From the IMG/VR virus record IMGVR_UViG_3300006919_000253, positions 1-31,086 of that record: a stretch of DNA of 31,086 bases. One strand, given 5' to 3'. Under the pieces are notes generated by a model that did not search any database, was not told the DNA's origin, and was given only the letters and a program-made list of their open reading frames with translations. How positions within the stretch are numbered: the stretch's first letter is position 1; each line of letters starts with the position of its first letter. The DNA comes from a virus. The translations under genes and the position numbers were made by a program. Of the stretch, positions 3,978 through 16,597 are shown one piece after another.

Positions 3978-4970
3978 ATGAAAGCTTTAGTTATAAGTGG
4001 TGGTGGTTCTAAAGGTGCGTTTGCTGGTGGTATAGTAGATTACCTAACAAATGTTAAAAATAGAGATTATGAATTATATGTTTCTTCATCAACTGGTACA
4101 CTTGTTCAACTATTAGTAGCATCCGACAATATAGATAAATTAAAAGAAGGTTATACAACTGTTAAGAACGAAGATATATGGAGAATAAATCCATTTAAAG
4201 TTAAAACAAATCTTAACGGTAAAGTTAAAATGCAATTAAATTGGTTTAATGTTATTAGGAATTTATTACCAACCATAACCATTAAAAATTTAAATAAATT
4301 TCCATATTTTAAAATAAATAAAATTAATGGTAAGTTAAGTTTTGGTGATTCTAGCAATTTAATAAAATTAATTAAAAAGTTTTTATCTTTAAAAGAATAT
4401 TTAAGAATCAAAGAAGAACTTAATAAAGAATTAGTTGTTTGTGTTGTAAATGCAACACTTAAAGAAATTGAATATAAATCTTCAAACGATTGGGGTTATG
4501 ATGATTTTTGTGATTGGACACATGCATCATGTAGTGCATACCCATTTATGAGTCCTATAATCAAAAATGATTACCAATACATGGATGGTGCTATTTTAGA
4601 AACTGTACCTATACAAGAAGCTATTAATAGAGGTGCTACTGAGATAGATATTATTATTCTTAAAGAGGAAGAACCAAAAAAAGAAATAGAATATATTAGG
4701 AATTTAGTTCATGGTTTAATAACAGAGATTGATATGATGTATACAGAATTATCTAAAAATGATATTGTCATTGGTAAATTAAAAGCTAAAGACGAAGATA
4801 TTATTCTTAATTTTTATTATACACCTAGAAGATTGACTAATAACAGTCTAATATTTGATAAAGAGATTATGTCTAATTGGTGGGCTGAAGGTTATAATTA
4901 TGCTAAAGATAAAAATAATAAAACATATAAAATGGTTAAGGGTAGAAAAACTAAGTTGTTAAAAAATTAA
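3978..4970 (+). CDS. Patatin-like phospholipase
   Basis: 330 aa. The N-terminus has the glycine-rich oxyanion loop GGGSKGAFAGG (residues 8-18). The nucleophile elbow is SSSTG (36-40), with Ser38 at the position of the catalytic serine of GxSxG; the first Gly is replaced by Ser. The block ASCSAYPFMSP (183-193) matches the conserved A-S-x-A-x-P segment of patatins. DGA with catalytic Asp203 follows, then VPIQEAINRGATEIDIIIL. Both members of the Ser-Asp dyad are therefore present. Patatins are lipid acyl hydrolases; in a phage tail operon this one could act on host membrane lipids during lysis, entry or superinfection exclusion (inference). It lacks a signal peptide. The ATG lies one base after the previous stop. 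The next gene is convergent with a 3-base gap. Confidence 0.88.
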   Translation: MKALVISGGGSKGAFAGGIVDYLTNVKNRDYELYVSSSTGTLVQLLVASDNIDKLKEGYTTVKNEDIWRINPFKVKTNLNGKVKMQLNWFNVIRNLLPTITIKNLNKFPYFKINKINGKLSFGDSSNLIKLIKKFLSLKEYLRIKEELNKELVVCVVNATLKEIEYKSSNDWGYDDFCDWTHASCSAYPFMSPIIKNDYQYMDGAILETVPIQEAINRGATEIDIIILKEEEPKKEIEYIRNLVHGLITEIDMMYTELSKNDIVIGKLKAKDEDIILNFYYTPRRLTNNSLIFDKEIMSNWWAEGYNYAKDKNNKTYKMVKGRKTKLLKN

Positions 4971-5281: not shown

Positions 5282-8128
5282 ATGGCTGATAAGGTATTTG
5301 TAAGTCCTGGTGTATATACTTCAGAAAAAGACTTAACTTTCGTAACACGACAAGTTGGTGTGACAACACTTGGTTTAGTAGGTGAAACTACTATTGGACC
5401 AGCGTTTCAACCAATATTCGTGTCAAACTATGACGAGTTCACATCGTTTTTTGGTGGACTTAACGCAACAAAAATAAAAGATACTGGGGCACCAAAATAT
5501 GAGCTGCCTTACATTGCTAAATCTTATCTTTCTCAGACAAATCAACTATTCGTTTCCAGAATACTTGGTTTTTCTGGTTATGATGCTGGTTTAGCTTGGG
5601 GAATCACCCTTGATGCTGCATTAGATGGTACTACATCTGGTGCTACTGGTGGTGGTGGAGCTAACGCTTCATTAATCTCATTTACCGCATCTACTGGTAC
5701 TAGTGTCGCAATAACAAGTTTATCATCAACTGACCCTCTTGTTCAATCTCTTTGGGATGCTGGATTATTAACTAGTCAATTAGCATATCTAGCTGCTGCT
5801 GCAACTGGAACTACTGCATCTATAGGACCTGTATTTGAAAAGAATGGTAACACATTTAGTGGTTTAACTTTAACTAACACGCTTTCTACTAAGAGTAACT
5901 CTGGTGGTGCAGCGATTGGTGTTTGTTCTGGTGTTACAACTCATTACTCTGGTACTGGATATTCTAATATAGAGAATAAGATAGTTTCATTGCTAAGAAG
6001 TAGAGGTACTGTTGATTCTGATGAAATAATGAGACATGAATTGACTGGATTCACTAATGTAGGTTTTAACACAAATGTTACAGCTGCTGCTACTGACCCT
6101 AAAGGAGACTTTGGGTTAACTGGTACTTCTACATCACAAGGTGCATTTACATATTCATTATCTTTTGATAAAACAAAGAAAAATTACTTACCTAGAGTAC
6201 TTGGTACAGGAGCTCAAGATGGTCAAACAGCATTATATGTTGAAGAAATGTTTGATAACATGTTTGAGGATTACGTAACTGATGAAAAAGTTAGAGGTAT
6301 TAATATCGATGCACTTATAAATTATAGTGATGATTTCGATGATTACTTAACAGAATACCAACCAGCGGTTACTCCATGGGTTGTTTCTGAATTAAGAGGT
6401 AGTAACTTACTTAGATTGTTCAGATTATGGACAATTTCTGATGGTAACGCTGCTAATAAACAATTTAAAATATCTATTAAGAATATTAAATTGGATGATA
6501 AAGAATTTGATGTTGAGATTAGAGCATATGGTGATACAGATGCTAAACCTGTAGTGCTTGAGAGATTTACAAGGTTAACTATGGACCCAACATCTAATAA
6601 CTATATTGCTAAGAGAATTGGTACTTTAGATGGTGATTTTGCTTCACGTTCTACATATGTATTAGTTGAATTAGAGGAAGAGTCAGATACTTCAGACGCA
6701 TTCCCAGGTGGTTTCTTAGGTTTCCCTATTAGAGATTACCAAACAAATTCAAATAGTACTGTTCAGTCTCCATCAATTGAGTATAAGCAAACTTATGGTA
6801 CTTTTGAAAATAAAAGAAAATTTTATTTAGGTTTATCTGATACTAAGGGTATCGACCAAGATTTCTTTGATTACAAAGGTGTTCCAGAAAATGATGACTT
6901 ATCAATGTGGACTGGTCTTACTAATGGTTTCCATATGGATATCGGAGCTACTGGTGCGACAATTGATAATGTAGAAATAGTAATTAATTCAACAGGTGGT
7001 ACTTATAGTCCAGTTTATGAATTTGATACTGGTTCTTGGGCTTTTAGAACCGAATCTGATGTTGTGGGAGGACCATACGAAAAGGTTTATGCTAGAAAAT
7101 TCACATTCGCACCATACGGTGGTTTTGATGGATGGGATATCTATAGAACTAAAAGAACAAATACTGATAGATACACAATAAATGGTACTAGAGGTAAAGA
7201 TGGTTTACTTAGTGGTGTATTTGCTAATAGAGCACTTACAAATGGTGATGCTGGGATTAATTCAGATTACTATGCTTACTTAGAAGGAATTTGGACTTTC
7301 CAAAACCCAGAGGCTACAAATATTAATGTATTCTCTACACCAGGTATTGATACAACATATAATACTAACTTAGTAGAAGAGGCTATTGAGATGGTAGAAC
7401 AAGATAGAGCGGATTCACTTTATATTGTTACTACTCCAGATACAGATGCTTCGGGTGATGTTATGTTACCAGAAGATGTTGTTGACCAATTAGATGGCCA
7501 ATTTGATTCTAACTACACGGCTACTTACTGGCCTTGGGTTCAAATTAATGATGCTGAGAATAATGTTTACATCTATGTTCCACCTACAAGGGATGTAGTA
7601 AGAAATATTGCTCTTACAGATAACATTTCATTCCCATGGTTCGCAGTTGCTGGTGTACAAAGAGGTGATGTTCAAGCTATTAAAGCTAGAAAGAAACTTA
7701 CACTTGCTGAAAGAGATACTCTTTATGATGGAAGAATTAACCCAATCGCTACTTTCGCTTCTGAAGGTATTAAGATTTGGGGTAACAAAACCCTTCAAGT
7801 TAAAGACACTGCTCTTAATAGAATCAATGTAAGAAGACTATTGTTACAAGCTAGAAAATTAATTTCTGCTGTTTCTATTAGATTATTATTCGAACAAAAC
7901 GATGATGTAGTAAGAAATCAATTCTTATCACTTGTAAACCCAATCTTAGATAATATACGTTCTGAGAGAGGTCTTACAGACTTTAGAGTTGTTCTTGACG
8001 AATCTCCAGAGTTAATTGACCAAAACACTCTTTGTGGTAAAATATTCTTAAAACCAACAAGAGCGTTAGAATTCATATGTGTTGAGTTTAACATTATGAA
8101 CACTGGTGCAAGTTTCGATGATATTTAA
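5282..8128 (+). CDS. Contractile tail sheath protein (T4 gp18-like)
   Basis: 948 aa. The N-terminus MADKVFVSPGVYTSEKD carries the PGVY segment typical of phage tail sheaths, followed by GLVGETTIGPAF and FGG/YLSQTNQLFVSRIL. The C-terminal 170 residues hold the most conserved sheath block: WFAVAGVQRGDV, LYDGRINPIATF, GIKIWGNKTLQ, NVRRLLLQARKLI, LFEQND, and the final FICVEFNIMNT. The protein forms the contractile outer tube that drives the inner tube through the cell envelope. It is much longer than T4 gp18 (about 660 aa). The extra length is in the Gly/Thr/Ser-rich section after residue about 115 and in the mid-protein domains, which probably form surface-exposed insertions. A candidate late promoter precedes it and a strong terminator follows, so it can be transcribed as a single-gene unit, as fits a high-copy virion protein. 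Confidence 0.95.
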   Translation: MADKVFVSPGVYTSEKDLTFVTRQVGVTTLGLVGETTIGPAFQPIFVSNYDEFTSFFGGLNATKIKDTGAPKYELPYIAKSYLSQTNQLFVSRILGFSGYDAGLAWGITLDAALDGTTSGATGGGGANASLISFTASTGTSVAITSLSSTDPLVQSLWDAGLLTSQLAYLAAAATGTTASIGPVFEKNGNTFSGLTLTNTLSTKSNSGGAAIGVCSGVTTHYSGTGYSNIENKIVSLLRSRGTVDSDEIMRHELTGFTNVGFNTNVTAAATDPKGDFGLTGTSTSQGAFTYSLSFDKTKKNYLPRVLGTGAQDGQTALYVEEMFDNMFEDYVTDEKVRGINIDALINYSDDFDDYLTEYQPAVTPWVVSELRGSNLLRLFRLWTISDGNAANKQFKISIKNIKLDDKEFDVEIRAYGDTDAKPVVLERFTRLTMDPTSNNYIAKRIGTLDGDFASRSTYVLVELEEESDTSDAFPGGFLGFPIRDYQTNSNSTVQSPSIEYKQTYGTFENKRKFYLGLSDTKGIDQDFFDYKGVPENDDLSMWTGLTNGFHMDIGATGATIDNVEIVINSTGGTYSPVYEFDTGSWAFRTESDVVGGPYEKVYARKFTFAPYGGFDGWDIYRTKRTNTDRYTINGTRGKDGLLSGVFANRALTNGDAGINSDYYAYLEGIWTFQNPEATNINVFSTPGIDTTYNTNLVEEAIEMVEQDRADSLYIVTTPDTDASGDVMLPEDVVDQLDGQFDSNYTATYWPWVQINDAENNVYIYVPPTRDVVRNIALTDNISFPWFAVAGVQRGDVQAIKARKKLTLAERDTLYDGRINPIATFASEGIKIWGNKTLQVKDTALNRINVRRLLLQARKLISAVSIRLLFEQNDDVVRNQFLSLVNPILDNIRSERGLTDFRVVLDESPELIDQNTLCGKIFLKPTRALEFICVEFNIMNTGASFDDI

Positions 8129-8210: not shown

Positions 8211-9344
8211 ATGCGTAAGAAAGTATTAATTAGTGAACACCAATTATCAGCATTAGTTGAGTATATAAAAGAAAACGAAGACCAAATAATAATTAGAGAA
8301 GAATTATTAGAAGAAGGTATCAAAACTTGGGTTTTGGGTGCAGCTCTTGCATTGGGATTAAACATTGGTAACGCTCAAGAGAAAGGTGACATCATATTGC
8401 AAAACGATAGCATTAGAAATCAAATAGAAAAGACATTACAAAACGATGAAGGTATTGAAGATTTGGCTAGTGAACTTAGAGTTGATGCTGACCAACTTAA
8501 ATCATATATGGTAAAAAATGCCGAGCAAATTAATAATACTTTTGATAACTACGATAAAAAGAAAAATTTAAATATTAATGTTAAACAGGGTGATAAAAAG
8601 TATAGTATCAAAGCCATGCTTAATAAATTTAAACTTAACGGTTATGCAATCACAAATATTGAAACAATATATGATACTATAGTTAATTATCCAGAAGCGC
8701 CAGTCGTAATGTCTGATACTTTATCTCTAATGATACCATCAATAGAAAAACATGATACTTTTAACCATAAATTACCAACAGAAACTGTTGAAAACATACA
8801 AAATTTATTAAAAACAATAAAAGAAAGTGGTGGTAATGTAACTTCTATAACTATAAGGTCTAAAACTGACGCTGAGAGAGTTCCTAGTTATATAAGTGAC
8901 GATGACCCTACTGGTAACTATACGTTAGCTAAAAAACGTGCTGAGGAAGCTATTAAAGCTATTAAAGGGTCTGGTATAGACCTTGGTGGTGTTAGTATGC
9001 AGATTGATGATAGTAGCGCTGTTAATAGTGGTCTTAATCAAGATTCTAAAGAATTAAAGATAGCTCAAGACGAATTTAATAAGGATAGAAGTGGTTCTAG
9101 AGAAAAATATAGTGATGATAGAGGAGTTGATATAGTAATAAACTACGAATATAACTCAAAAAAAGCTGATGATTCTAATCCAGAAGTTATTGTAGAAAAA
9201 ATTGTAAACATATCTTATGTTAAAGCTTATGTTTATAAAAAAACAAGTAATAAATATAAAGGTGGTGGTAGCATTACTTTTAATAAAGATAAATGCAAGG
9301 TTAAAATAGGTAAGATTGATACCCTTAAGTGCCCTACTTGGTAG
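8211..9344 (+). CDS. Divergent OmpA-like-domain phage protein, possible internal or tail-associated protein
   Basis: 377 aa. It begins with VLISEHQLSALVE (residues 5-17), a motif also seen twice at the start of the 566-aa gene at 12249. A hydrophobic stretch follows at about 39-55 (TWVLGAALALGLNIGNA), which could be a membrane segment or a buried helix. Residues about 175-275 resemble an OmpA/MotB peptidoglycan-binding fold: a helix (VENIQNLLKTIKESG), a strand (VTSITIRSKTDAE) and the closing NYTLAKKRAEEAIKAIKGSGI, which resembles the N-x-x-L-(S/A)-x-x-R-A helix. The usual G-H-T-D is replaced by S-K-T-D. The gene has its own candidate promoter and ends 3 bases from the convergent CAP-like gene. 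Role unknown; peptidoglycan contact during entry or lysis is an inference. Confidence 0.65.
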   Translation: MRKKVLISEHQLSALVEYIKENEDQIIIREELLEEGIKTWVLGAALALGLNIGNAQEKGDIILQNDSIRNQIEKTLQNDEGIEDLASELRVDADQLKSYMVKNAEQINNTFDNYDKKKNLNINVKQGDKKYSIKAMLNKFKLNGYAITNIETIYDTIVNYPEAPVVMSDTLSLMIPSIEKHDTFNHKLPTETVENIQNLLKTIKESGGNVTSITIRSKTDAERVPSYISDDDPTGNYTLAKKRAEEAIKAIKGSGIDLGGVSMQIDDSSAVNSGLNQDSKELKIAQDEFNKDRSGSREKYSDDRGVDIVINYEYNSKKADDSNPEVIVEKIVNISYVKAYVYKKTSNKYKGGGSITFNKDKCKVKIGKIDTLKCPTW

Positions 9345-9347
9345 TAT

Positions 9348-10010
9348 TTATTCACCGAAATTTTGAACACAAACCTTTTCGCTAATATATACTGAAATAT
9401 ACTTTTTATTTGGGTCTAGTAGATTTTTTCTATGACCTCTTGACTCTATAAATGAATCAATTAATAAATCTAATATTAATTTACTAAAATCTTTATTTTG
9501 GTATTCCGTAATACTCATTTTTATAACATTCTCAGTAACTATTTTTTTTGTTTTTTCAAATCTTTGATACACTCTTTCACCATTTGGTCCAAAGTGTCCA
9601 ATAGTATTGGTGCTATCTAAAAAAACGCCATGACTATCAGTTATTAAGTTCATATTATGATTATAAGTTAATTTATTTAGTGGTTCCGTATTTTTTAAAA
9701 CATTAATTAGTTCTTCAGCTGTTTTAATTTTAATATTAATCACATCTATTCCACTATAACTTTTTTCAGACACCATATTATTATATTTATCCATATTACC
9801 AGTATTTGCAGATATTGCAACAACTTGAGAATTACTAATAAGTCTTATGACTTTTTTTTGTGAATAAATGTATTTATCTACTAATGGTATGTAAGATTTA
9901 GGATTCTCTCTTAAATTATTTATTTGGTTAATCATAATACTATCTAATTCAGATTGTGAAAATGAAGTAAATGATGATATAAATAATGTTATTATTAAAA
10001 AAAATTTCAT
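9348..10010 (-). CDS. Secreted CAP/SCP-like (YkwD-type) protein on the opposite strand
   Basis: 220 aa. The N-terminus is a clear signal peptide: MK, hydrophobic FFLIITLFISSF, then a polar cleavage zone around TSFSQ (15-19). The mature part begins with IMINQINNLRENPKSYIPL, the opening helix of bacterial CAP domains. LTYNHNMNLITDSHGVF (114-130, His127) follows, then IGHFGPNGERVYQRF (137-151, His139), TENV (Glu160-Asn161) and ESRGHRKNLLDP (189-200, His193). This order of H, E-N and GHR matches the CAP/PR-1 cavity motifs. CAP proteins are secreted in all domains of life, and bacterial YkwD types are of uncertain function. The gene stands alone on the minus strand inside the late module, so it looks like a separately expressed cargo gene that could modify the host surface or periplasm. 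No convincing promoter was identified for it. Confidence 0.8.
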   Translation of the reverse strand: MKFFLIITLFISSFTSFSQSELDSIMINQINNLRENPKSYIPLVDKYIYSQKKVIRLISNSQVVAISANTGNMDKYNNMVSEKSYSGIDVINIKIKTAEELINVLKNTEPLNKLTYNHNMNLITDSHGVFLDSTNTIGHFGPNGERVYQRFEKTKKIVTENVIKMSITEYQNKDFSKLILDLLIDSFIESRGHRKNLLDPNKKYISVYISEKVCVQNFGE

Positions 10011-10192: not shown

Positions 10193-10681
10193 ATGGCTGA
10201 TTTATTAATGAAAATGCCCGTACCTTACGAACCAAAGAAAAAGAATAGGTTCCTTTTAAGGTTTCCAGCGGATTTAGGTATTCAAGAGTGGTGGTTAGCT
10301 TCTGCCTCTAGACCATCTATCACACAAAACGAAGTTGAGATTCCTTTTCTTAACACATCTACTTGGGTAATTGGTAGGTTTAACTGGGAATCAATTTCAG
10401 TTACATTTAGAGACCCTATTGGTCCTTCTGCTTCTCAAGCTATTATGGAGTGGGTTCGTTTACAATCAGAGTCTATTACTGGTAGACAAGGTTATGCTGC
10501 TGGTTATAAGAAAGATGTTGAATTAGAAATGCTTGACCCAACTGGTGTAGTTATTGAAAAGTGGGTTCTTCAAGGAACAATGCTTACAAATGTTAACTTT
10601 GGTGACTTATCAATGGATGATGACGCTATCGCTGACATCACTGCCGATTTGAGATTTGATAGAGCAATTTTATTATTCTAA
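10193..10681 (+). CDS. Tail tube protein (T4 gp19-like)
   Basis: 162 aa, essentially the length of T4 gp19. It opens with MADLLMKMPVPYEPKKKNRFLLRFP, where N-R-F and the following strand are typical of the tube fold, and continues with FLNTSTWVIGRFNWESISVTFRDPIG, the tail-tube beta-sandwich signature. It ends with an acidic section and DITADLRFDRAILLF. Subunits stack as hexameric rings to form the inner tail tube on which the sheath polymerises. It sits between candidate late promoters and a perfect-palindrome terminator, so it is an independent high-expression unit like the sheath. There is no Shine-Dalgarno sequence before the ATG. Confidence 0.93.
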   Translation: MADLLMKMPVPYEPKKKNRFLLRFPADLGIQEWWLASASRPSITQNEVEIPFLNTSTWVIGRFNWESISVTFRDPIGPSASQAIMEWVRLQSESITGRQGYAAGYKKDVELEMLDPTGVVIEKWVLQGTMLTNVNFGDLSMDDDAIADITADLRFDRAILLF

Positions 10682-10809: not shown

Positions 10810-11940
10810 ATGAGTGATAAAAGACCTAATGTGTTTCCTACACAAGAACAAATCTCACAAGCAAACGAAACTGGTGAAAAAATTGCAAATCAATTAGCCG
10901 AACAAGAAAATGTTCAACAAGTATACGGTTCTGAACAAGAGCAGAAAGCTGCTGAAGAAATGAGGAGGAGAACTGAAGAGCAAATAAAAATGAGAGAAGA
11001 GCAATTAAGGAAAAATGAAGAGATTGCTAGACAAATGGATGAGAGAAGAAGTAGACAATCTAAAGAAACTCTACCATATGTTCAGCAACCAGTTAAATCT
11101 GAACCACCTAATGTTCCACCTGTTGACCCTCCTAATTTTAATAATAACGACAACTCTGATGATAAACCTAAAAAGGTTGACGATAGTTATATAAGAAGTA
11201 TTAGTCAACCTCAAATGAATCAACCATTTGACGTTATACCATTACCTTCAGAAGGTAAATTATATCCTAGAAGAAACAAAACAGTAAAGGTTTCATTTAT
11301 GACTACTGCTGATGAGAATATTCTTACATCACCAAACTTAATGGAAAGTGGTGAATTTTTAGAAATACTAATTAATAGAAAACTACTTGAACCAGATTTA
11401 AGATATAAAGATTTATTACCAGGTGATAGAAATGCTATTATGATTTGGCTTAGAGCTACTGGTTACGGTGAAATGTATCCTATATTAGTTTATGATGAGA
11501 AAGAAGAAGTTTTTGAAACTGAGGTTAATCTATCAGACTTAAAACAAATACCATTAAATGTTGAGCCTAATTCTGAAGGGATGTTTGATTTTCAATTACC
11601 AATATCAAAATCTAATATAGTATTTAAAATGTTAACAGTTGGTGAACTGGAAGAGCTAGGAAAGAAGGTTGAAGCTACTAAAGATTTACCTGTTAATGAA
11701 GAAGCTACGTTAATATTAGAAGCTCAAATTGTAGCTGTTGACGGAAATAGAGACAGAGATTTTATTAAAAACTTTGTTAGAAATATGAGAGTGGGTGATG
11801 CCCAAAAATTAAGAGATTACTTTGATAAAATTGAGTGCGGTGTTGATATGAACCTAACAGTTAGGACTCCTGGAGGTGGGTCCGTTGAAACGTTTCTTCC
11901 CTTTACACCAAAGTTTTTTTGGCCTAACTCAGAAATATAA
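10810..11940 (+). CDS. T4 gp26-like baseplate hub / tail-assembly protein
   Basis: 376 aa. Residues 1 to about 130 are a charged Q/E/R-rich helix (for example EEMRRRTEEQIKMREEQLRK) and a Pro-rich linker. From about 140 the domain matches the T4 gp26-type baseplate family: FDVIPLPSEGKLYP, VSFMTTADENILTSPNLMESG, LLPGDRNAIMIWLRATGYG, then VAVDGNRDRDFIKNFV and the C-terminal TFLPFTPKFFWP. It lies between the tube and tape-measure genes, the position held by the lambda G/GT tape-measure chaperones. The last codons contain a run of seven T after which a downstream frame continues (see 11914-11921). The N-terminal coiled-coil extension is longer than in T4 gp26 (about 208 aa in total). Confidence 0.85.
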   Translation: MSDKRPNVFPTQEQISQANETGEKIANQLAEQENVQQVYGSEQEQKAAEEMRRRTEEQIKMREEQLRKNEEIARQMDERRSRQSKETLPYVQQPVKSEPPNVPPVDPPNFNNNDNSDDKPKKVDDSYIRSISQPQMNQPFDVIPLPSEGKLYPRRNKTVKVSFMTTADENILTSPNLMESGEFLEILINRKLLEPDLRYKDLLPGDRNAIMIWLRATGYGEMYPILVYDEKEEVFETEVNLSDLKQIPLNVEPNSEGMFDFQLPISKSNIVFKMLTVGELEELGKKVEATKDLPVNEEATLILEAQIVAVDGNRDRDFIKNFVRNMRVGDAQKLRDYFDKIECGVDMNLTVRTPGGGSVETFLPFTPKFFWPNSEI

Positions 11941-12193
11941 AGAATCTCTTTTAGAAGAAATATATGTTTGTATAAAACACTTAGGAATGACGTATCAAGA
12001 TGTGTTATCCGCACCAACATACGAAAGAAGATACTACCTAAGTAGTCTTATAAATGAACATAAGAAAAAAGAAGAGTTATATGATGAAAGAATGTCAGAA
12101 AGTAAAAATAGTAATGCTAGAGGTAGCAGAACTAGTAGGGTAAGTGGGGACCAATTAAAATCAAAAATAAAGAGTGGAGAGATACCTAGCTAA
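11876..12193 (+). CDS. Downstream chaperone-like ORF, probably expressed as a frameshift extension of the gp26-like protein
   Basis: The open frame from ATG 11876 encodes 105 aa. Its first 15 residues lie wholly over the end of the gp26-like gene and look like a frame shadow. The part that resembles a real protein starts at the overlap: GLTQKYKESLLEEIYVCIKHLG, then MTYQDVLSAPTYERRYYLSSL and INEHKKKEEL. I recall small T4-like phage proteins with this plan (F-F-G-L-x-x-x-Y, Y-x-D-V, P-x-x-x-R). The frame is +1 relative to the gene before it. Ribosome slippage at 11914-11921 would give a fusion of about 460 aa (370 + 90). Independent initiation at 11876 cannot be excluded. The C-terminal 25 residues are polar and low-complexity. 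A terminator hairpin includes the stop codon. Confidence 0.7.
   Translation: MGPLKRFFPLHQSFFGLTQKYKESLLEEIYVCIKHLGMTYQDVLSAPTYERRYYLSSLINEHKKKEELYDERMSESKNSNARGSRTSRVSGDQLKSKIKSGEIPS
11914..11921 (+). other. Candidate programmed frameshift site (T7-G slippery run)
   Basis: Frame of the gp26-like gene: AAG TTT TTT TGG. After pairing with TTT the P-site tRNA can re-pair with TTT by moving +1 (or by moving back 2), and decoding then continues GGC CTA ACT in the downstream frame. A -1 slip would reach a stop within three codons, so only +1 or -2 is productive. Seven codons separate the run from the zero-frame stop. Confidence 0.55.
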
Positions 12194-12248: not shown

Positions 12249-13949
12249 ATGAAGTTAATAATCACAGAGCATCAATATGAAAAACTTTTTAATAATAAAA
12301 AAAGAAAACTAATTGTTACTGAAAGTCAATACAGTAAAATATTATCAGAAGATAATGTTACAAAAGCACTTAATAATATTAAAGATGGTCAAGCTATAAA
12401 ATTAACTGACGCTAAAGGAAGTGAAATGTATTTCAAGGTTCTTGGTGTTTTAGATAATGCCATTACTGTTATTAATTGTAACCCAGGTAGTGTTTATGTT
12501 AACACATTCTTTCGTATACATAGAAATGATATTCAAAATGGTGATGTTGGATACACATCAAAAAATAGAAAGTATATAAAAATAGATGTTTTAGATAAAG
12601 AAACTGGTGGTAAATACAAAACACTTGATGATATTGAAAAAGCTAATAAAGCTAAAAAGCTCGATGATGCTGAATTTAAAAGATTATTTGAATTATTTAA
12701 TAAAGAAATACTAAAAATTAATCCTGGATTTATCGCTAATGATATATCTAAGAATAAAGATACTTGGAAGTCTAGTACTTTTAAAAATGTAAAATTAAGT
12801 GTATTTGATGATAGTGGTAGTGGTCTTAAGTGTAAGTTAAGTCCATCTTCAGAACCTAAATTTACTATTGATACTGGGTCTAAAAAAGATAAAGACGGTT
12901 TTGATGGAGGTGCTGAAGGTAAAGAAAATGATAAACAATTAATAATTAAAAATTTATTATCTTTTAAAAGAGATTCTGGAATTGTTTTTAATTTAAAAGG
13001 TGGTTCTAAACTATTCGGTATTGTTTTAGATAAAAAAGATAAAAAATCTATTTCAATAGAAGTGATGAATTTTGAAGGTTCTGTAGGAAAAGGTTTTGAA
13101 ATAGGTAATTTAATAAAATTTGAGTCTGACCCAAAGAATGTTAATGTAAGGGGAGAGGGTGAAGATGAATTATTTGATTTGAGATTTAAAGCATACGTTG
13201 GTGATTATGACCGAAAGACTAAAGACACTAAAACTAAAGATGTTTATTTAAAAAATATTATGGAAATAGACATTGCAAATGTAGAAGATAAAGATGGTGA
13301 TATAAAAGTTACCGATATGATTGAAAAAGAAATAGGTGAGTTGACTGATGAAGAAATGGATGAGTTAATTAAATCAATTACATCTGGTAATAAAAATGTT
13401 GTTAACGCAATGTGGAAAAAACCAAACTGGTTTTCAGAATTGCTTCTTTTATCTAAAGAGAGAGGTATTATACCAGCCGAAAGTAAATTAGGTGAAAAAA
13501 TACAGGGTGCATTATCAGAATTTTCTCAATTTAAAGAAAATAGTATTGGTACTGTAAGATTTAGTTCTTTAAGATTAGATGGTAATAAACTTCAAGAAGC
13601 ACTTAGTGAAATTAAAAATAGAGAAGATAAAAGTAAAAATTACAATAAACCAGGTAATCCAACTAAAAACGTTGCTTTTAAAACAATAGCTAAAATAAAT
13701 AATAGAGGTGACAATACACCAATGGTTGAAACTAATTTTAAAGATAAGATTGGAAAAGAAGAAAAATTATACTTTAGATTATATTTAGTTAAGAAGGTAA
13801 AAGAAACTGATAAAGTTTCTCAGTATGAATGTGAAGTGTACTATAAAACTAAGGAGAAGAGCGATAATATCAAATTAGGTGATGCTGTGCTTGATGTTGT
13901 AAGAAGAGATGAAAAGAAAGATAAGGATAAAAAAAAGGAGAATAAATAA
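12249..13949 (+). CDS. Unrecognised 566-aa Lys/Asp-rich structural-module protein with tandem N-terminal motif
   Basis: I do not recognise the family. The N-terminus has a tandem motif: KLIITEHQYEKLF (residues 2-14) and KLIVTESQYSKIL (20-32). A related motif starts the OmpA-like gene at 8211. I-x-E is the type of site cut by T4-like prohead proteases, so these could be targeting or processing sequences (inference). The rest is highly charged with many Lys and Asp (KKDKDGFDGG, VLDKKDKKSISIEV, the C-terminus KKDKDKKKENK) and alternating strands, without signal peptide or membrane segment. It is preceded by its own candidate late promoter. Its stop overlaps the tape-measure start in TAATG, and the AGGAG inside its last codons is one of the few Shine-Dalgarno-like sequences in the window. 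This coupling suggests a role in tail assembly or an association with the tape measure. Confidence 0.7.
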   Translation: MKLIITEHQYEKLFNNKKRKLIVTESQYSKILSEDNVTKALNNIKDGQAIKLTDAKGSEMYFKVLGVLDNAITVINCNPGSVYVNTFFRIHRNDIQNGDVGYTSKNRKYIKIDVLDKETGGKYKTLDDIEKANKAKKLDDAEFKRLFELFNKEILKINPGFIANDISKNKDTWKSSTFKNVKLSVFDDSGSGLKCKLSPSSEPKFTIDTGSKKDKDGFDGGAEGKENDKQLIIKNLLSFKRDSGIVFNLKGGSKLFGIVLDKKDKKSISIEVMNFEGSVGKGFEIGNLIKFESDPKNVNVRGEGEDELFDLRFKAYVGDYDRKTKDTKTKDVYLKNIMEIDIANVEDKDGDIKVTDMIEKEIGELTDEEMDELIKSITSGNKNVVNAMWKKPNWFSELLLLSKERGIIPAESKLGEKIQGALSEFSQFKENSIGTVRFSSLRLDGNKLQEALSEIKNREDKSKNYNKPGNPTKNVAFKTIAKINNRGDNTPMVETNFKDKIGKEEKLYFRLYLVKKVKETDKVSQYECEVYYKTKEKSDNIKLGDAVLDVVRRDEKKDKDKKKENK

Positions 13950-16597
13950 TGGCTGACGAATTCGAAAAAAGACGTAAAGAGGTAGAGAATCTTAAATCCA
14001 GTTTAGAGAACCAAAGAGCCTTACAAAAAGAGCTTGCAACTGGGCTAGATAGCTATTATAAAACCCTTAAACAAATTAGTGGGCTACAGAAAGATATTGC
14101 CCAAATTAAAGCTTCAGAAAAAAAAGAATTAAATGAAATAGTCGCTCTAGAGCAAGAAGAGAAAAAACTTTTAGATAAGAAGAAGAGAGATGCTAGGTCG
14201 TTAACAGAAGAAGATAAAAAAAGACTTAAGATACTTAAGGCTGAAATCCCTTTACGTAGAGAAAATTTAAAATATTTTAAAGAACAAACTGATGAGCTTG
14301 AAAAGCAAACTGCTGAACTAAAAAAATCAGTTAGAGAAGCCAACTTATTAAAAGCTAGTTTTAGAAGTGCTGGTAAGGTAATAGGTTGGGGTGTTGGTAA
14401 GATTAAAGAATCGGGTATCTTTGAAATGGATAAAGAAATCCGTGCTGCTGCCCAGAGTATGGGTATTGGTAATAGGCAATATAAAGCCTTTGCTGACAAT
14501 ATGATGTCAGCTGCTGATACAACTACAATGATGGGTGCTGATATTAAAGATTTAGCTAAATTACAAAGAGGTTATAGTGAAGAAATAGGTAGGTCAGTAA
14601 GACTTAGTCAGAAAGGTCTTGTAGCTATGGCTGGATTGTCTGAAGGTACTGGTCTAGGAGCTGAATTTGCAGCACAAATGGCTGGTTCAGCTGATGATTT
14701 CGGAATGAGTGTGGAGTCAGCTGCTAGTTTAGTAGAGGATACTATGAATATCGCTAGTGAAATGGGTGTTAATTCATCAAAAGCTGCTTCAGTACTTCAG
14801 AAGAATTTAAAAATGGCTCAAAAATACGGGTTTAAAGGTGGTGTAAAAGCTATGGGTAGAATGGCTGCTGACGCACTTAGACTTAAATTAGACATGGATG
14901 GTATTGCTGGTATGGCTGAGAAAGTATTTAGACCAGAAGGTGCTATTGAAATGGCGGCTCAGTTATCTGTAATGGGTGGTGAGTTTGCTAAATTAGGTAA
15001 TCCTATGGAACTTATGTTTAAAGCTAGAAATGACTTTGAAGGATTTGCTAAAGATATTGGTAAAGCGGCTGGAGAATTTGTCACACTTAACAAAGAGACT
15101 GGTGTATTTGAGGTTTCTGGTGGTCTTGCTAGAGATAGAATAAGAGAGATATCTAAAATTACTGGTATTGGTGTTGAAGAGTTAACTAAAATGGCTGAAG
15201 CTCAAAAGAAAATAGAGGCTGTTGGTGCGGTATCTCCTATTAACATGAATGAAAAAGATAAAGAGTTAGTATCTAGTCTTGCTGAGTTTAATAAAGATAC
15301 TGGTCAATTTGAAATTAACGTTGGTACTTTTAGTAAAGACGTTAAAGACCTTAAAGAAAGTGATTTAGAATCCATTAGAGCTCAAAAACAATCACTAGCT
15401 GAAAGAGCTGAACAAGCAAAAACTTTTGATGAGACTATAATGAATGTGATAGAAACAATTAAACAAACATTACTACCTTTCGCTATAGAATTAAAAGAAG
15501 GTTTGGGTGATACACTTAAAAACTTTACAAGTTATTTAAAAGAAAAGAAAGTATTAGCTGGTCTTAGAAGTTTTGCTAAAAGTGCTGGTGAGTTAGCTGT
15601 TGGTGTTGTTAAATTCATAGCTGAAAATCCATTTAAAGTTCTATTAGGTGTTTTAGGTGGTTGGGCAGCATTAAAGGCTGCTACATGGTTTGCTAATGGT
15701 ATGACATTAGGTCTTGGATTTAATAGAACTGCTAACGTTGGTGGAGGTGGTGGTAGTCCACTGGATATGATTGGTGGTAAGGGTGGTAAATTTGGGAGAG
15801 CTATGAAAAAAGGTGGTTTTTCTAGGAATGCTGCTGGTAGACTTACTAAGAGCGGTAAAGGTCTTGGTAGAACTGGTAACTTTATGAGAAAGGCTGGTAA
15901 ATTTGGTGGTAATATCTTTGGTAAAGGTGGTGGAATGAATTTAGGTAAATCACTAGCTAAAGGTGGAAAAGCTTTTACTGGTTTAGGTGCAATAGCAATA
16001 GGTGCTGATATTGGTAGAAGTTTTATGGATGATAAAGATAGTAATTTAGGTAAATCTATTGGTGTTGCTGGTAAAGCTGCTGAATATGCTGGATACGGTG
16101 CTTTATTAGGTAGTGTGATACCTGGTGTTGGTAACGTTGTAGGTGGTGTTGTAGGTGGTCTTATAGGTGGTGGTATGGGTATATACGATGAATTTTTTGC
16201 TGATAAAAATAAACGTGGTAAAGGTAGTAGTAATTTAAACTTTACAGGAGTTAATGATGGTGTCATTTTCAACCCAAAAGATAAATTCTTGCAAATGGAT
16301 GATGGTGCATTGATAGCTGGAACTAATATTAATGGTAATAGAGCTTTAGCACAAGAAATAGCTGCTTTGAATGGTGGTGGAGGTTCATCTACTGTTGAGC
16401 ATAAACATGGTAAACAAGTTGTAGAACATAAGGTTTCAGTAGATAACATTGATTCTGATTTTGCATTATATTTAACTAAATCTATAGCTAAAAATCCAGA
16501 AGCTAGAGAAACATTGGCTACAGCTAATGTAGATACTACGAAGGTAACTGGACAATACGGAAAACTAACACCAAACCCTAGTATGAATTTGATGTAA
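13949..16597 (+). CDS. Tail tape-measure protein
   Basis: 882 aa. Residues about 5-130 form a long charged coiled coil (EKRRKEVENLKSSLENQR, KKLLDKKKRDARSL). A long Ala/Met/Gly-rich helical region follows (MAADALRLKLDMDGIAGMAEK, MAAQLSVMGGEFAKLG). There is a hydrophobic section at about 546-590 (VGVVKFI, VLLGVLGGWAALKA), then a basic Gly-rich stretch. A second very hydrophobic Gly-rich segment lies at about 714-747 (YGALLGSVIPGVGNVVGGVV). This combination of coiled coil plus membrane-active segments in one long protein next to the assembly-chaperone genes is typical of tape measures, which set tail length and help form the DNA channel in the inner membrane. Its start overlaps the previous stop. 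A large minus-strand ORF opposite the Gly-rich part is a shadow of GGT codons. Confidence 0.85.
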   Translation: MADEFEKRRKEVENLKSSLENQRALQKELATGLDSYYKTLKQISGLQKDIAQIKASEKKELNEIVALEQEEKKLLDKKKRDARSLTEEDKKRLKILKAEIPLRRENLKYFKEQTDELEKQTAELKKSVREANLLKASFRSAGKVIGWGVGKIKESGIFEMDKEIRAAAQSMGIGNRQYKAFADNMMSAADTTTMMGADIKDLAKLQRGYSEEIGRSVRLSQKGLVAMAGLSEGTGLGAEFAAQMAGSADDFGMSVESAASLVEDTMNIASEMGVNSSKAASVLQKNLKMAQKYGFKGGVKAMGRMAADALRLKLDMDGIAGMAEKVFRPEGAIEMAAQLSVMGGEFAKLGNPMELMFKARNDFEGFAKDIGKAAGEFVTLNKETGVFEVSGGLARDRIREISKITGIGVEELTKMAEAQKKIEAVGAVSPINMNEKDKELVSSLAEFNKDTGQFEINVGTFSKDVKDLKESDLESIRAQKQSLAERAEQAKTFDETIMNVIETIKQTLLPFAIELKEGLGDTLKNFTSYLKEKKVLAGLRSFAKSAGELAVGVVKFIAENPFKVLLGVLGGWAALKAATWFANGMTLGLGFNRTANVGGGGGSPLDMIGGKGGKFGRAMKKGGFSRNAAGRLTKSGKGLGRTGNFMRKAGKFGGNIFGKGGGMNLGKSLAKGGKAFTGLGAIAIGADIGRSFMDDKDSNLGKSIGVAGKAAEYAGYGALLGSVIPGVGNVVGGVVGGLIGGGMGIYDEFFADKNKRGKGSSNLNFTGVNDGVIFNPKDKFLQMDDGALIAGTNINGNRALAQEIAALNGGGGSSTVEHKHGKQVVEHKVSVDNIDSDFALYLTKSIAKNPEARETLATANVDTTKVTGQYGKLTPNPSMNLM

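Follow-up and report, generated by a model that had tools for sequence, protein, structure and literature searches.

A gp26-like gene of a bacterial virus has a run of thymines near its end, and the +1 frame remains open across its stop codon. Is this second frame entered by programmed frameshifting, and what would that mean for phage T4? Atkins et al. 2016 (PMC5009743) describe G-T frameshifting as widely conserved among long-tailed phages, T4 excepted. The T4 proteins gp26 and gp51 have been described as hub assembly chaperones, the second being essential but without a known function (Leiman et al. 2010, PMC3004832); gp26 is reported both as a hub component and as a chaperone, and gp51 is required, yet absent from the particle (PMC3004832). 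The window analysed here is the whole 31,086-nt stretch of the bacterial virus record IMGVR_UViG_3300006919_000253 (positions 1-31,086). We consider it very probable that a programmed +1 ribosomal frameshift in this locus yields two tail-assembly (tape-measure) chaperones, G and G-T.

The locus and its slip site

The following features were assigned:

10810-11940, + strand: G, gp26-like protein of 376 aa (PF12322 / phrog_150), standard decoding
11914-11922, + strand: slip site TTT TTT TGG, with Phe UUU in the P site and Trp UGG in the A site, followed by CCT
11921-12193, + strand: T, a largely helical domain in the +1 frame (90 aa and a stop codon), accessible only through the slip
10810-12193, + strand: G-T, predicted frameshift product of 460 aa (370 in frame 0, 90 in frame +1), deduced from G and T

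Frame 0 of G closes with AAG TTT TTT TGG CCT AAC TCA GAA ATA TAA, leaving six sense codons between the second TTT and the stop, and the +1 frame is open as far as 12193 (post-slip reading FF/GLTQKYKESLLEEIYVCIKHLGMTYQDV..., likewise given as FF/GLTQKYKESLLEEIYVCIKHLGMTYQDVLSAPTYERRYYLSSLINE..., the slash marking the slip). An earlier, sequence-only reading of the window had placed a T7 run at 11914-11920 with a G at 11921, called a -1 slip a dead end and estimated a product of about 460 aa; the positions are correct, the -1 frame stops after two codons, and the +1 fusion has the estimated length. The codon it had taken for an ATG in the +1 frame upstream of the slip is a GTG; this part of the frame contains no ATG, its start-like codons being a GTG at 11876 and a TTG.

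The N-terminus of G is of low complexity, and its C-terminal domain is related to T4 gp26. In profile comparisons, G matched phrog_150 (baseplate hub) with an E-value of 4e-8 and PF12322 with an E-value of 4e-5 at 23.8 bits, just below the gathering score of 24.5; relatives score above this cut-off (SP-15 with 94 bits, L114 with 60 bits). T matched DUF6760 (PF20546) weakly, at 21.9 bits and an E-value of 1.8e-4, which does not reach the Pfam cut-off of 27; a literature search on DUF6760 returned no paper. An Erf-like PHROG match of T (E 0.18) was discarded as chance. Phage searches with the DNA, and tblastn against phages with T alone as query, gave zero matches.

Conservation of the junction

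Relatives were collected from IMG/VR with the T segment as query (15 loci, all with the same junction) and with a gp26 profile, a search blind to the junction (80 loci; in 77/77 of those analysed, the +1 frame runs on through the gp26 stop). Ten genome-assembly loci and six phage records agree with this. The comparison set comprises 97 non-redundant loci, namely the window and 96 relatives, most of them found by the gp26 profile; LR756508 was left out. Aligning the junction in relatives had been proposed in the sequence-only reading as a check, and the result bears it out: the overlap lies at the C-terminal Phe-Phe and the +1 frame is kept in 97/97 loci. TTT occupies the P site in 94 of them and CTT in 3, and the A-site codon is TGG in 58, CGN in 28, TAC in 6, TTT/TTC in 3, AGT in 1 and CAC in 1, so that slip variants such as CTT TGG and TTT CGT are present among the relatives. 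Past the frame-0 stop, the median open length is 66 codons in the +1 frame, with a minimum of 39, and 10 codons in the -1 frame.

The nucleotides of the junction are constrained as well. Counted on both strands of 545 kb of loci, TTTTTTTGGCC occurs 54 times, each time at the junction (54/54). The Phe-Phe pair is written TTTTTT in 92/94 cases, with 56 expected from codon usage, and the first Gly codon is GGC in 54/55 loci of the TGG class, compared with 25% across T overall. As a sequence pattern, this arrangement is far beyond chance. The slip site is less obvious in LIS04 (TTT TTT AGT). In the 484-kb phage genome LR756508 (L022), a +1 T domain is likewise accompanied by a less obvious site, TTT CTA TTC CCT.

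Proposed mechanism and direction of the slip

We infer that the fusion protein would be made by a +1 slip in the P site. Most ribosomes would read the gp26-like gene through to its stop and release G. A minority would stall while peptidyl-tRNA(Phe) occupies UUU and the A site holds a codon that is decoded slowly (UGG in the window, CGN or UAC in relatives); the P-site tRNA would then move one base forward, from UUU to UUU/UUC, and decoding would restart at GGC, extending the gp26 sequence by the T domain. A slow A-site codon beside a P-site codon able to re-pair one base on is the standard setting of +1 slippage. The A-site codons are unusual for these genes: Trp accounts for 24 of 13,254 residues elsewhere in TGG-class G, and CGN for 20 of 215 Arg codons (9%) elsewhere in CGN-class genes. 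In the CGN class, the Gly at -9 is encoded by GGG in 25/27 loci, versus 31/293 elsewhere (P 1.5e-19), which puts GGGGTGGAG 3 nt before the P-site codon. The bacterial RF2 site has the same 3-nt spacing from its SD-like element to the P-site codon.

A downstream RNA structure was considered as stimulator and gave no clear signal (mean fold z -0.5 to -0.9). SD-like GGAGG motifs are enriched 25-45 nt upstream; we claim no role for them, because they track a Gly/Glu turn of the protein and vary in position.

The sequence-only reading had left the direction at +1 or -2. Slippage by -2 on the T run would lead into that frame too, and a -2 shift is what phage Mu employs in its equivalent gene (PMC5009743). 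The sites TTC TTT CGG and TTC TTT CGT (L076, L080, L025) speak against it, since a -2 slip would there require re-pairing from UUU to UCU, while a +1 slip requires UUU to UUC; the direction is therefore narrowed to +1. The SD-like spacing of the CGN class also fits +1, and we regard a -2 slip as unlikely.

Frameshifting or an independent start of T

Alternatively, T could be a separate gene with its own start or with re-initiation, the overlap being ordinary gene packing. Judged by the window alone, internal initiation would be possible at the GTG or TTG upstream in the +1 frame. The GenBank records of several phages assign T, or an internal piece of it, its own start, and in 57/75 T sequences of the cyanophage type a Met follows the slip within 12 residues. 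In Cygsa01, where T lies in the -1 frame but a clear slip site is missing, the junction reads TAATG. Against this stand the loci in which such a start is missing: from the preceding stop of the +1 frame to the slip, 36/97 contain no ATG, GTG or TTG and 86/97 no ATG. In the closest relatives of the window, T has to be read 23 codons into the conserved domain before the first internal ATG is reached. The conserved +1 sequence starts precisely at the slip, and the slip nucleotides are conserved beyond usual codon choice.

The substitution pattern of eight close relatives changes frame across the junction. Before the slip, substitutions amount to 0.18, 0.16 and 0.42 (0.418) at frame-0 codon positions 1, 2 and 3; after the frame-0 stop they amount to 0.43 (0.433), 0.23 and 0.12 in frame-0 order, the excess falling on the +1 wobble position. 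The slip itself is nearly invariant. Together with the 36/97 and 86/97 loci lacking a start, this frame switch and the invariant slip argue for frameshifting rather than a separate start, which we consider quite improbable. In the same alignments, synonymous divergence is reduced over about 60 bases upstream of the slip (about 11855-11912 and the corresponding positions of relatives), beyond the effect of the slip site itself.

A frameshift near the 3' end of G into T is thus what the 97/97 loci, the slip codons and the frame switch of substitutions indicate at the sequence level. With the junction in 97/97 loci, and with many loci unable to start T alone, the proposal of the sequence-only reading that a programmed +1 or -2 frameshift joins the gp26-like protein to a chaperone-like domain is supported, and so is its proposal that the lineage has the missing G/GT analogue, with gp26 as its base.

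Transcriptional slippage on the T run, giving mRNAs in the +1 frame, is very improbable. T7 runs are slippage-prone in AT-rich genomes, and the window has such a run; yet the arrangement persists where only T6 is left (TTTTTTCG) or the run is broken (TTTCTTTGG, TTCTTTCGG, TTCTTTCGT), and the conserved slow or rare A-site codons implicate the ribosome. A homopolymer sequencing or assembly error in one continuous gene, suggested by a T run one base off an in-frame fusion, is refuted in practice, because the +1 relation recurs among relatives whose slip sequences differ, both on independent contigs and in cultured phages.

Tail module and structure models

The neighbouring tail genes of the window are:

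5282-8128, + strand: tail sheath (phrog_23, E 4e-59)
10193-10681, + strand: tail tube protein, upstream neighbour of G (phrog_4542, E 5e-28)
13949-16597, + strand: probable tape measure protein of 882 aa, assigned by position and length with a weak match to phrog_1047 (E 5e-5)

Sheath, tube, G, T and tape measure follow one another in the window and in relatives as they do in lambda-type tail modules, with G lying between tube and tape measure, and the position of the probable tape measure gene agrees with the annotated tape measure genes of the cultured Flavobacterium phage immuto, of LIS04 and of the cultured Bacillus phage SP-15. In the window, T and the probable tape measure gene are separated by one ORF of 566 aa.

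Other ORFs of the window were noted in passing. Two of them, 8211-9344 and 12249-13949, resemble each other in their opening motif (KVLISEHQLSAL / KLIITEHQYEKL), which may be a tag for targeting or assembly that they share; the second sits downstream of T and ahead of the probable tape measure gene. The ORF at 9348-10010 on the minus strand, within the tail module, has a signal-peptide-like start, and the ORF at 3978-4970, beginning MKALVISGGGSKGAFAGG, looks patatin-like by eye.

AlphaFold models were obtained for G residues 141-376 (mean pLDDT 91.5) and for T, which is modelled as helical (mean pLDDT 85.9). Among solved structures, VIA ranks the HK97 tail assembly chaperone 2OB9 first for the G model, with a Z-score of 4.3 over 95/104 residues and an rmsd of 4.3, the next match reaching 2.5; by the yardstick of the tool this is weak. 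A Foldseek search of the G model against the PDB gave no significant match. For the T model, the best BFVD match has an E-value of 0.08, and several weak matches are annotated as tail or tape-measure chaperones or as cyanophage gp51; as small helical domains match easily, these are only suggestive.

T4 gp26 and gp51 and the cyanophage-type relatives

Both T4 proteins match PF12322, gp26 (208 aa) with an E-value of 9e-64 and gp51 (249 aa) with an E-value of 4e-52, and their genes lie on opposite strands. T4 gp26 consists of PF12322 alone; gp51 consists of PF12322 and an additional C-terminus, the T domain. The T profile was aligned to this C-terminus with hhalign at an E-value of 5.6e-6; 0/200 column shuffles scored as well, and the reversed control was negative. 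The cyanophage 'gp51' is a small protein made of T only. It links the two more firmly, with E-values of 4e-8 between T and cyanophage T and of 9e-12 between cyanophage T and the gp51 C-terminus, shuffles falling far below. By profile comparison, these alignments show the T domain to be homologous to the gp51 C-terminus.

In T4-like loci of the cyanophage type, a canonical -1 heptamer, T TTT TTC, lies at the same place, with T in the -1 frame (77/77 usable loci, IMG/VR). Among individually read cyanophage-type and related records, 8/10 show a T run immediately ahead of the gp26 stop codon and, behind this run, T in the -1 frame. The gp26-'gp51' junction of T4-like cyanophages and pelagiphages is, from its sequence, likely a canonical -1 frameshift.

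In T4-like cyanophages, pelagiphages and related phages (L149-L228, L129, L130, L143-L148), gp26 terminates with T TTT TTC or T TTT TTT. The small 'gp51' gene occupies the -1 frame, and two genes are annotated in the records. In the cyanophage S-SCSM1 (L128), T is in the +1 frame despite the same TTTTTTC run, which reflects either a change of direction or a sequencing error.

In the injection-system-like loci L123 and L124, G and T are in one frame. Across three Bacteroidota loci (L123, L124, L125), gp26-like and DUF6760-like parts share one frame with no recoding. In another injection-system-like locus (L122, G073:C54), a DUF6760 protein with no clear start lies in the -1 frame and overlaps the upstream gene at TCG GGG GAA TCA TAG, possibly a -1 frameshift outside phages.

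In the gene tree, gp26 and gp51 of the Straboviridae (the T4 family) group together, apart from the frameshift lineages, with a moderate support of 0.84, and gp26 of RB43 groups with gp51. The sequences make a gp26/gp51 duplication in the T4 family likely; it is likely rather than proven because of the moderate support and the placement of RB43 gp26.

The sequence-only reading had noted that T4 is usually cited as an exception. This can now be explained: T4, which has no frameshift here, probably carries G (gp26) and G+T (gp51) as separate paralogous genes. T4 would make by two paralogous genes (26 for G, 51 for G+T) the pair that the cyanophage type would make by a -1 slip on T TTT TTC. We think it probable that T4 is no exception to the G/GT rule and that the whole T4 gp26 superfamily makes its pair by a +1 shift (the lineage of the window), a -1 shift (cyanophage type), in-frame fusion (some contractile injection systems) or duplication (T4 26/51), the recoding direction having been replaced in evolution and the protein pair kept.

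Significance

If this is correct, the T4 exception to the rule of tail-chaperone frameshifting (PMC5009743) is removed, and T4 gp26 and gp51, with their unclear role in hub assembly (PMC3004832), gain a concrete mechanism that can be tested with classical T4 mutants. As a natural +1 frameshift family of large size, in which TGG, CGN or TAC in the A site define several slip-site classes, the junctions would be useful for studies of +1 recoding, a field with few known conserved signals. Their annotation is possible immediately; at present, public records overlook or split them. A literature search for recoding in gp26, with subscription papers outside its coverage, found no description of it, nor did the literature searched describe the slip sites of the present family.

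Comparison with known systems

As in lambda gpG/gpGT, the gene lies between tube and tape measure, the predicted slip is near the 3' end of G and T is in the new frame (PMC5009743). Lambda uses -1 slippage, whereas the lineage of the window would use +1; G of this lineage is a PF12322 (T4 gp26) protein, and its likeness to lambda comes from gene order and frameshift layout. By analogy with lambda, G would coat the tape measure and T would recruit tail tube subunits, so that we infer a role of G and G-T as tape-measure chaperones. The tail chaperone frameshift of Mu is -2 and that of the haloarchaeal myovirus HSTV-2 very likely +1, and both are contractile-tailed viruses that reach the +1 frame at the equivalent gene (PMC5009743). 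With T4 gp26 and gp51 the lineage shares the PF12322 domain and, in gp51, the C-terminal T domain; T4 differs in having two genes on opposite strands and no frameshift.

Outside tails, the bacterial prfB (RF2) +1 site is CUU UGA and that of influenza PA-X is UUU CGU. In both, as proposed here, a P-site codon re-pairs one base on beside a slow A-site codon, and the CGN class shares with prfB an SD-like element (GGGG..) 3 nt before the P codon. RF2 differs in having a stop codon in its A site, where the gp26-type sites have a sense codon, and its function is unrelated.
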